64,000 nt of DNA from Poriferisphaera corsica (GTDB lineage Bacteria; Planctomycetota; Phycisphaerae; Phycisphaerales; Phycisphaeraceae): NCBI RefSeq assembly GCF_007747445.1, contig NZ_CP036425.1, positions 1,596,175-1,660,174 of the forward strand. Reading direction: 5' to 3'. This document shows positions 5,177 to 8,033 of this stretch, one piece after another. The translations under genes and the position numbers were made by a program. The notes below the pieces were generated by a model that was not told the origin of the DNA, ran no database searches, and saw nothing but the letters and a program-made list of their open reading frames with translations. Positions within the stretch are counted from its first letter, which is position 1. Each line of letters begins with the position of its first letter.

Positions 5177-6121
5177 CTATTTATTCTTTCGCTCACGTTT
5201 CGGTTTTATTTTTAGATCCAAATTATCCATCGAGACCGTTGTATTGCTTGGGATTGACTGTGTAATGAACACTGCGCCGCCAATCGTTGTGCTTTCACCA
5301 ATCGTCGTTGATCCACCCAAAATAATGGCACCACCATAAATTGTGACGTTATCTTCAATTTTTGGATGCCGTTTCATGCCTTTCCAATCCTGTCCTCCCT
5401 TTGTAGATAACGCGCCCAAAGTTACGCCTTGATAAATCTTGACGTTATTACCAATATCGCAAGTCTCGCCAATCACAATTCCAGTGCCATGGTCAATGCA
5501 GAATCGTCGGCCAATTGTGGCGCCGGGATGGATGTCAATTCCCGTTTCGTTATGCGCATACTCCGTCATGATCCGAGGTAGCAGAGGGACATTAAGTTTG
5601 TATAGTTCATGAGCCATGCGATAGGTGAAAATCGCATCAATACCGGGGTAGCAGAAGATATTCTCATCTGTCGATGCTGATGCCGGGTCACCATCAAATG
5701 TTGCCCGGACGTCATCAGCAAGAATTTCACGAAGCTCAGGAAGTTTTCGCATAAATGCTTCCGTGGCTTCCATAGCCACATCGCAGCATTGGTCGCACTC
5801 ATTGTCTGTTTCGCCTCGCTCATTTTGCCCATAGCACATCGCCTGATGCACCTGCTCGTATAGCAAGTCATGAGTCTGCACCAAAAGCTCCCCCACGTGA
5901 TAGCTTACGTTCTCGCTTGTAATACGCTGTTCATCAAAAAAACCTGGAAACACCAGCTTTCTCAATCGCTCAATAATCTCAATCGTTTTCTGGCGATTAG
6001 GTAGAAAAATAGAATCCAGATGCTGCATGCTTGATTCGCTCTGATAGCTTGCAACCAAATCACGCACTAGATCTTCTAGGAACTGCTTCTTGTCACGTTG
6101 TGGTTTCTCTAAATCGCTCAT
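5177..6121 (-). CDS. cysE: Serine O-acetyltransferase
   Basis: Transfers acetyl from acetyl-CoA to L-serine, the first step of cysteine synthesis. The 314-residue protein has a helical N-terminal half and a C-terminal left-handed beta-helix of hexapeptide repeats. HPGATIGRRFCIDHGTGIVI followed by GET is the family signature with the catalytic His; GVTLGALSTKGG and DNVTIYGGAIILGG are further coils. The length fits the longer EpsC-type enzymes. The extreme C-terminus is basic (KIKPKRERKNK). It is the first gene of the minus-strand run that ends in trpF. No cysK is in the window. Confidence 0.93.
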   Translation of the reverse strand: MSDLEKPQRDKKQFLEDLVRDLVASYQSESSMQHLDSIFLPNRQKTIEIIERLRKLVFPGFFDEQRITSENVSYHVGELLVQTHDLLYEQVHQAMCYGQNERGETDNECDQCCDVAMEATEAFMRKLPELREILADDVRATFDGDPASASTDENIFCYPGIDAIFTYRMAHELYKLNVPLLPRIMTEYAHNETGIDIHPGATIGRRFCIDHGTGIVIGETCDIGNNVKIYQGVTLGALSTKGGQDWKGMKRHPKIEDNVTIYGGAIILGGSTTIGESTTIGGAVFITQSIPSNTTVSMDNLDLKIKPKRERKNK

Positions 6122-6237: not shown

Positions 6238-6266
6238 AAAAAAACACGGCCCACATCTGCGGGCCG
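6238..6266 (-). terminator. Rho-independent terminator of the small RNA
   Basis: A 6-bp GC stem (CGGCCC/GGGCCG, 6247-6252 with 6261-6266) is followed on the minus strand by GTG and a run of seven T. It ends the small RNA transcript, 14 bases beyond its closing stem. Confidence 0.75.
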
Positions 6267-6478
6267 ATTCAAAGTTAACCGTTTGTCTCGAAGGGGAGCT
6301 CTAGAAGGATTTGCTCGAACCCCAATTTAAGGTGGGTGCATTGCCAGATCATCCCGGTCTTCCACTCGTAGGTGGCTTGGCCATTGTGCCCAGTTCCAGC
6401 TCCCTTGGGGTTCTCAAAGGTTCGAGCAAATACGCGACAGACGCTCTTGATCCCTTCGGGCAAACGTTCACTTTCTGC
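6240..6478 (-). ncRNA. Structured small RNA, 6S RNA-like
   Basis: Seen: a near-consensus promoter, a start site expected near 6476-6478, about 200 nt of extensively self-complementary RNA, and a terminator. The ends pair (6452-6466 with 6280-6295) to form a closing stem of about 13 bp. A bubble of 20 nt (6432-6451) against 13 nt (6296-6308) follows. Above it, 6419-6431 pairs perfectly over 13 bp with 6309-6321, then CCAA/TTGG, and an apical CCAC/GTGG hairpin. A closing stem, large central bubble and long upper arm at about 200 nt is the layout of 6S RNA, the RNA polymerase-binding regulator. RNase P, tmRNA and SRP RNA motifs were looked for and not found. The 6S identity is inference (about 0.4); that it is a noncoding RNA is firmer. 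Confidence 0.6.
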
Positions 6479-6483
6479 AAACT

Positions 6484-6512
6484 ATTATACCCACCCAATC
6501 AACCTCAACCAA
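6484..6512 (-). promoter_or_regulatory. Sigma-70-type promoter of the small RNA
   Basis: On the minus strand a -35 box TTGGTT (6507-6512), a 17-base spacer and a perfect -10 box TATAAT (6484-6489) sit directly before the structured RNA. It is among the closest matches to the housekeeping consensus noticed in the window. Confidence 0.75.
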
Positions 6513-6695: not shown

Positions 6696-7859
6696 CTACT
6701 TATTTGGTACGACTAGCTTCATACCCGGTTGGATTGCGTCTGGATCGTCATTCAACGCTTTTTTGTTTGCATTGAAGATTTCACGCCAACGGTTAGGCGT
6801 TCCGAAATACTTATTCGAGATACTTGAAAGCGTTTCACCCGCTTTGATTGTATGAACCTTCACCTTGCTGCCTGTTGTCGCATTGCTTGAGGAGCTACGG
6901 CTGCGTGATGTCACGTTCGATTTTGCACGCGTTGCCTCAGCTGCTTTAAGCTTATTAATGTCAGGTAAATTCAGCTTCATGCCCGGCTTGATCCGCTTAG
7001 GATCTACTGTTGGATTCGCCTTCGCAATTTCTTTGAAGTACTTAGGTGTTCCAAAAACCTTCACGCTAATCTTATACATGCTATCACCCGACTGCACCGT
7101 GTATTGTTTTGCAGAAGCAGGCGTAGAAGTACGAGGTATAACGCGTGATGCCGTGTTTGTTGCCCGCGCAGGTGATGTTGTCGCTGTAGCAGTTGTTCGC
7201 GTACCTACAGAGCGAGAAGATGGGGCTGGGCGATTCACCCTTGTTGGAATGGAGCGGCCTGCCGTTGCCGGCGTTGCGATTGCTCTCGGCCCTGTCGCTG
7301 ATGGCGAGGTTGGACGGGCTTGATTGCCGCCTAGTGTTAAGCTTCTTGATCCGGTTGTATTAGGCGTTGTTGACCCGCTTGCCGTGGTAGCGTTTCGAGA
7401 AGCATTTGCTGTGTTACCTGTCGTAATTGGTGCCCGAGTAGATGCTCTGCTAGTCGGTGTTACCGTGCTGCCTACTGACGAACCGGTACTTGGTTCGCTC
7501 GTTGTATTCGCATTTCTGCGACTACGGTTCAGCAAATCACGCACACTATTCGAAGTCGATCGGTTTCCCGAAGCGCTCGTTGATGTACCTTGCGGTAATG
7601 ATCGCCTCGCACTGCTCGTAGATGAGCTGCTCAGTGAATTACCACTCAGTGTTCTACGCGAACGATTAGTCGAAGCAGTTGTGTTACTCGTCGGTTTAAT
7701 CGTCGAAGTGTTTGCGTTTTCTGTCTGTTCAATCGTGGCACCCGGTTCACCAGTCTCAGCAACCGTCGTTTTGTCGGCATTGATATTGATGTAGTAAACC
7801 ACGCAAAAAACAAACAAAATACAGGCAAACAACAGCGCGATCTTGTAAGAGCTGTTCAT
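6696..7859 (-). CDS. Membrane-anchored protein with two LysM domains
   Basis: The 387-residue protein starts with one hydrophobic segment (about residues 7-25), then a long Ser/Thr/Asn/Arg-rich low-complexity region of about 190 residues, then two LysM domains. The first begins YTVQSGDSMYKIS and ends GMKLNLP; the second begins HTIKAGETLSSIS and ends GMKLVVP. LysM binds peptidoglycan or chitin, so a cell-wall tether facing the periplasm is likely. The ATG at 7859 is chosen because GGAGG lies 8 bases upstream; an in-frame TTG further up would leave that site inside the gene. A terminator follows. The specific role is unknown. Confidence 0.85.
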   Translation of the reverse strand: MNSSYKIALLFACILFVFCVVYYININADKTTVAETGEPGATIEQTENANTSTIKPTSNTTASTNRSRRTLSGNSLSSSSTSSARRSLPQGTSTSASGNRSTSNSVRDLLNRSRRNANTTSEPSTGSSVGSTVTPTSRASTRAPITTGNTANASRNATTASGSTTPNTTGSRSLTLGGNQARPTSPSATGPRAIATPATAGRSIPTRVNRPAPSSRSVGTRTTATATTSPARATNTASRVIPRTSTPASAKQYTVQSGDSMYKISVKVFGTPKYFKEIAKANPTVDPKRIKPGMKLNLPDINKLKAAEATRAKSNVTSRSRSSSSNATTGSKVKVHTIKAGETLSSISNKYFGTPNRWREIFNANKKALNDDPDAIQPGMKLVVPNK

Positions 7860-8033
7860 CGCAGCGCCTCCATGCAAGAATTATCAGACAATAGTGTAAC
7901 ATCCTACCCACAAATCAGCTAGGCACACTTTGCGCAGCTTTATACCTACTGCTCATCCCGCACTGATATCAACCGTCCACGCTCAACCGCATAGACCTAA
8001 AAACGTGATACTTCTACCTTTTCACCGTAAACT

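Follow-up and report, generated by a model that had tools for sequence, protein, structure and literature searches.

Does the compact transcription unit that lies between a LysM gene and a cysE-like gene in the planctomycete Poriferisphaera corsica encode a 6S RNA, and how much of the 6S mode of action could it retain? 6S RNA is a small RNA which mimics an open promoter and thereby restrains RNA polymerase. The locus was picked out by a sequence-only reading of a 64,000-nucleotide stretch of the chromosome (NZ_CP036425.1, positions 1,596,175 to 1,660,174; the whole stretch is hereafter the window), in which a 6S-like RNA was proposed from a promoter, a body of about 200 nt with a 20 x 13 nt loop and a perfect 13-bp arm, and a terminator. 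All of these parts were found to be present on the minus strand, between the LysM protein (6696-7877, minus) and the cysE-like serine acetyltransferase (5177-6121, minus), and a tRNA/tmRNA scan of the window returned none. The layout of the locus is as follows.

6507..6512, minus strand: -35-like hexamer TTGGTT, read from the sequence and a member of the best -35/-10 pair in a promoter scan
6484..6489, minus strand: -10 hexamer TATAAT, read from the sequence
6267..6478, minus strand: predicted 6S RNA body of about 200 nt (RF00013 match 6429-6311; fold z -3.5 for 6482-6240)
6238..6266, minus strand: intrinsic terminator CGGCCCGC-AGAT-GTGGGCCG followed by a T-run, read from the sequence
5177..6121, minus strand: cysE-like serine O-acetyltransferase, the conserved downstream neighbour (TIGR01172)

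The two promoter hexamers are separated by a 17-nt spacer on the minus strand. An RNA start at about 6478-6476 was placed by reference to the -10 hexamer and the 3' end was placed before the terminator, so that the length of about 200 nt and the RNA's own promoter, both typical of 6S RNA, are predictions from these positions. Promoter conservation lends them weight: 22 of 30 copies, the window's own counted, carry an exact TATAAT 40-100 nt ahead of the core, vs 7 of 2314 background tiles of 60 nt, while the -35 shows only a loose likeness among relatives in the promoter scan. A terminator-type hairpin with a T-run follows the RNA in 27 of the 30 copies (own counted) by a permissive scan run without a control. 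The minus strand itself folds at -90.1 kcal/mol compared with -74.4 +/- 4.5 for 200 shuffled sequences (z -3.5), none of which folded as well.

The score of the window copy against the standard 6S model is marginal. Rfam at its gathering thresholds gives no match in the window, and the best match in a permissive scan of 551 nt is the 6S/SsrS family RF00013 at 25.8 bits (E 0.0026), well short of the 46.4-bit curated cutoff. Over 40,689 bases the E-value rises to 0.19, and RF00013 run against the whole P. corsica genome finds nothing at E 0.001. Five other Rfam families gave weak matches at the locus in the permissive scan, all far under their cutoffs, and were rejected. Given the marginal score and the empty whole-genome search, the family had to be decided on homologues. 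In an Rfam scan of 13 loci, L015 (69.2 bits) and L019 (48.4 bits) pass the cutoff over the full model, with some homologues covering all of its positions 1-187; seven loci match below the cutoff (L028, L012, L008, L003, L018, L002 and L001, the window copy), and four (L006, L009, L023 and L027) have no match at E 1. A covariance model built from 30 copies, R1, makes a single match in the P. corsica genome. In the 11 class genomes matched by both R1 and RF00013, the two models fall on the same place and strand in all 11. The window RNA is thus homologous to sequences that Rfam accepts as 6S, and the proposed family call holds through these homologues and not through its own score. The comparisons show a real 6S RNA that has diverged too far to be called by the standard model; it joins the known 6S family and is no new kind of RNA. 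The feature is almost certainly a single-copy 6S RNA gene, which would be transcribed from its own sigma-70-type promoter, end at an intrinsic terminator and yield a rod able to occupy the polymerase.

Homologues are widespread in the surrounding taxa. At the DNA level, BLAST detected them in 41 of 61 genomes, P. corsica counted, leaving 20 without a match. Searches over more than 40 genomes ran with stricter filters at which weak matches are lost; under such conditions R1 matches 30 of 198 class genomes (own counted), RF00013 matches 89 of the same 198 (50 above cutoff), and across the phylum RF00013 matches 167 of 392 genomes (101 above cutoff). RF00013 contributed 68 class loci (L061-L128), of which R1 recovers 33 and misses 35; the 30 recovered loci that were checked against RF00013 coincide with it in position and strand without exception. 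A wider model, R2, matches 91 of the 121 genomes of the order, a figure reached partly by construction because some of the genomes behind R2 belong to that order. When 19 genomes were rescanned with R2 (16 of the 20 BLAST-negative genomes and three missed by R1), 12 remained without a match at E 1. For four of these 12, the cysE neighbourhoods (L168, L169, L171 and L172, the last cut by a contig end) yielded at best 11.5 bits (E 0.34) in an unfiltered search, and RF00013 finds nothing there at E 2. Several near-complete genomes of family f2, from genus g34 and others, likewise have no 6S RNA by R2 or RF00013. This suggests either loss or divergence beyond detection, and lineage loss in g34 and other f2 genomes is possible. 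In four g34 genomes (G037, G042, G046 and G050) that lack a 6S RNA by these models, a cysE match is also absent at 1e-20. Separately, genome G017 bears, besides L024, a second 6S-like locus (L173:1012-1133, minus strand) which scores 49.1 bits with R2 and on which RF00013 is silent at E 2; it is either a paralogue or contamination.

The secondary structure was then resolved into the following elements.

6458-6452 / 6295-6289, minus strand: outer end pairing CGAAGGG:CCCUUCG (inverted-repeat search)
6419..6431, minus strand: 5' strand of the closing stem, AUUUGCUCGAACC, the predicted pRNA template (Rfam alignment, inverted repeat I1)
6405..6418, minus strand: 5' side of the central bubble, UUUGAGAACCCCAA (Rfam alignment)
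6334..6404, minus strand: apical arm, starting with GGGAGC:GCACCC and including the terminal loop (helices 2-5)
6322..6333, minus strand: 3' side of the central bubble, ACCUUAAAUUGG, the expected site of a -10-like element (Rfam alignment)
6309..6321, minus strand: 3' strand of the closing stem, GGUUCGAGCAAAU (inverted repeat I1 and compensatory-change test)

The outer end pairing, the internal loop of 20 x 13 nt (6451-6432 / 6308-6296) between outer stem and arm, and the perfect 13-bp inverted repeat formed by AUUUGCUCGAACC and GGUUCGAGCAAAU (I1, 6431-6419 / 6321-6309) all exist in the sequence as originally described. Their register was nevertheless wrong, because the Rfam alignment puts the 13-bp helix, previously labelled an upper arm, as the 6S closing stem beside the central bubble. 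By the same alignment the 20 x 13 nt loop is not the central bubble: the true bubble is UUUGAGAACCCCAA opposite ACCUUAAAUUGG, followed by GGGAGC:GCACCC and the apical arm, and the loop belongs to the less conserved outer portion of the closing stem. Two further inverted repeats, I5 and I6, were not used; I6 extends into the promoter region and I5 appeared genus-specific by eye.

The structure was tested on the alignment of 30 sequences. Pairing holds in 93.8% of the cells of its 32 pairs, compared with at most 49.0% when the partners are slid, and 16 of the 32 show changes on both sides vs a mean of 7.3 in shuffled controls, none of 500 shuffles reaching 16. The closing stem (helix 1, 12 pairs) is paired in 94.4% of cells, helices 2-5 of the apical arm change on both sides at 12 of 20 pairs, and the CCCAC leading into the 3' bubble is invariant. 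The closing stem, central bubble and apical arm are therefore backed by compensatory changes, whose absence in relatives the sequence-only reading had named as counter-evidence, and the structure stands beyond chance because the homologues keep the fold while changing both sides of its pairs. A class-wide alignment of 65 rows gives 90.2% paired compared with at most 54.8% when slid, although this alignment was fitted to the model and leans towards it. In the class alignment, the apical arms of L111, L125, L098 and L090 do not align to the model columns and are possibly longer or shorter. From genus to genus the alignment of the outer closing stem is poor: RNAalifold predicts no outer-stem pairs on the long alignment A2, and for this reason no cross-genus support is claimed for that stem, some homologues matching the Rfam model over 1-187 all the same.

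Taken against 6S/SsrS (RF00013), the window RNA shares the closing stem, the central bubble, the apical arm and a similar 3' bubble sequence, and its homologues attain the curated cutoff over the full model; it departs from the family in its own score of only 25.8 bits, its divergent outer closing stem and its cysE neighbour. The overall architecture is likewise that of E. coli 6S RNA, via RF00013.

A second pairing within the same rod offers a candidate for the switch by which a 6S RNA could leave the polymerase.

6405..6413, minus strand: 5' strand of the collapse-helix candidate, GAACCCCAA (perfect 9-bp repeat I2)
6317..6325, minus strand: 3' strand of the collapse-helix candidate, UUGGGGUUC (repeat I2; shares its last 5 bases with the closing stem)

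The full collapse helix and the closing stem are mutually exclusive, because five bases of UUGGGGUUC lie within the latter. Across the 30 sequences the candidate helix is paired in 90.0% of cells, with both-side changes at four of nine pairs (7 cells in total). Three of these four sit among the four bubble-side pairs, which are compatible with a standing closing stem, and the five exclusive pairs show a both-side change at one pair, in one cell. When nucleotides 1-16 of the core were blocked, as a pRNA would block them, the 5' bubble formed a mean of 9.6 pairs with the last 20 nt in the 30 copies, vs 3.6 for a shuffled bubble; between 0 and 13 of 60 shuffles matched the observed pairing, depending on the sequence, with two of the 30 sequences matched by 12 or 13. 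Among 53 further class rows (the 65 class rows minus 12, L001 to L040), the mean was 7.5 vs 3.1 shuffled; 43 of the 53 reach five pairs and 10, L056 and L103 included, fall under. In the closing stem (P2), the 3' strand is thus able to pair with the distal 5' bubble, which is a measure of pairing capacity only. This alternative 9-bp helix is conserved, and folding predicts that it appears when the 5' strand becomes occupied.

From these elements a cycle can be proposed. By virtue of its family membership, the central bubble of the rod would imitate an open promoter, such that the RNA would occupy the holoenzyme of RNA polymerase and the housekeeping sigma factor. Upon the return of nucleotides, the polymerase could initiate, on the bubble's 5' side, a short pRNA reading 5'-A(A)GGUUCGAGCAAAU..., its start presumably lying at about U6418/U6417 by analogy with E. 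coli 6S RNA. The expected 5' start of such a pRNA would be AAGGUUCGAG, or one base off, and the template strand is conserved in the 30-copy alignment. Synthesis of the pRNA would unwind the closing stem, the freed UUGGGGUUC would pair with GAACCCCAA in the 5' bubble as the collapse helix, and the RNA would then be released. The -10-like role ascribed to the 3' bubble element is taken from PMC8876501. The same paper describes a collapse-type helix in the 6S-1 RNA of B. subtilis and the 6S RNA of A. aeolicus; in B. subtilis 6S-1, as in the candidate, the alternative helix links the distal 5' bubble to the 3' strand of P2, the closing stem. The window helix is a perfect 9 bp derived from comparison and folding alone, whereas that of B. 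subtilis was derived from probing and mutants. In the E. coli type, by contrast, release entails a 9-bp hairpin within the 3' bubble (PMC8876501); unlike this, in the six blocked folds inspected the 5' bubble is joined to the 3' strand of the closing stem. Release by a collapse helix may hence operate in Phycisphaerae too.

The neighbourhood of the gene raises the question of whether the RNA also serves cysE. The window cysE-like protein matches TIGR01172 with E 7.3e-50 and 169.2 bits, under the curated cutoff of 210.65. For 52 relatives' loci, flanks of about 1.5 kb were fetched, some of them truncated at a contig end. A cysE match is present in 30 (29 downstream on the same strand; one, L038, on the opposite strand); in the other 22, some with truncated flanks, the RNA is there but no cysE could be detected in the flank. 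The window's LysM protein finds a match in two. Conservation of 6S gene neighbours within particular taxa has been described in PMC9130861. Read-through into cysE could occur alongside 6S function. A fuller version, in which a Phycisphaerales 6S RNA combines a conserved switch between closing stem and collapse helix with a conserved 6S-cysE unit, read-through tying cysteine synthesis to 6S transcription, is doubtful; it is rated lower because most of the compensatory changes fall where the helix can coexist with the closing stem.

That the structured RNA and its terminator instead constitute a cis-acting leader or attenuator controlling cysE is very unlikely. The arrangement would permit it, with RNA and cysE co-stranded, the T-run ending about 116 nt before the window cysE start and 29 of the 52 relatives' loci repeating the order, but the 22 loci without a detectable cysE and the opposite orientation in L038 do not fit such a role. 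Moreover, G225 carries the RNA with no cysE match at 1e-20, G054 and G157 carry cysE with no detectable RNA, and Rfam calls the homologues 6S.

An RNA akin to Ms1, which would bind the core polymerase instead of the sigma holoenzyme, is extremely unlikely. Ms1 is polymerase-associated and structurally related to 6S RNA (PMC9130861), and fold alone cannot separate the two; the homologues, however, match the Rfam 6S family across the full model and the 3' bubble retains the 6S family sequence. Ms1 is set apart by its description as well, being a core-binding RNA of another phylum, the Actinobacteria (PMC9130861).

Finally, a small protein of 62 codons has practically no chance of being the product, as the open frame (6463-6275, TTG start), although stop-free before codon 62 in 8 of 29 aligned relatives, retains its start in 0 of 29, meets a stop ahead of codon 62 in 21 of 29, differs from the nearest relative by 11/10/7 substitutions at the three codon positions and by one gap column, and matches no Pfam family at E 0.001. 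The starts, stops and substitutions led to rejection of a coding role and reveal no codon-level conservation, in keeping with the original view of the frame as a chance one.

With the 6S RNA assignment retained, its place in the literature can be considered. PMC5673643 reports no 6S homologue in Thermogutta (T. terrifontis) and cites the 2014 survey of Wehner for the absence of 6S RNA from Pirellula (P. staleyi) and Rhodopirellula (R. baltica). Within the accessible open-licence literature on 6S RNA and planctomycetes, this paper alone takes up planctomycete 6S RNA genes. The 6S collection was expanded in PMC2864571, which refers to an additional file for details, and planctomycete 6S RNAs may be listed there. 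The remark that 6S RNAs are poorly documented in Phycisphaerae thus agrees with the open-licence literature, but sits less well with the 89 of 198 class genomes that RF00013 already matches. The P. corsica gene adds a 6S RNA below the Rfam cutoff, in a bacterial group where 6S RNA has been little described and in a phylum with reported 6S absences (PMC5673643). With some near-complete relatives lacking a detectable copy, the loss of 6S RNA becomes a testable question.
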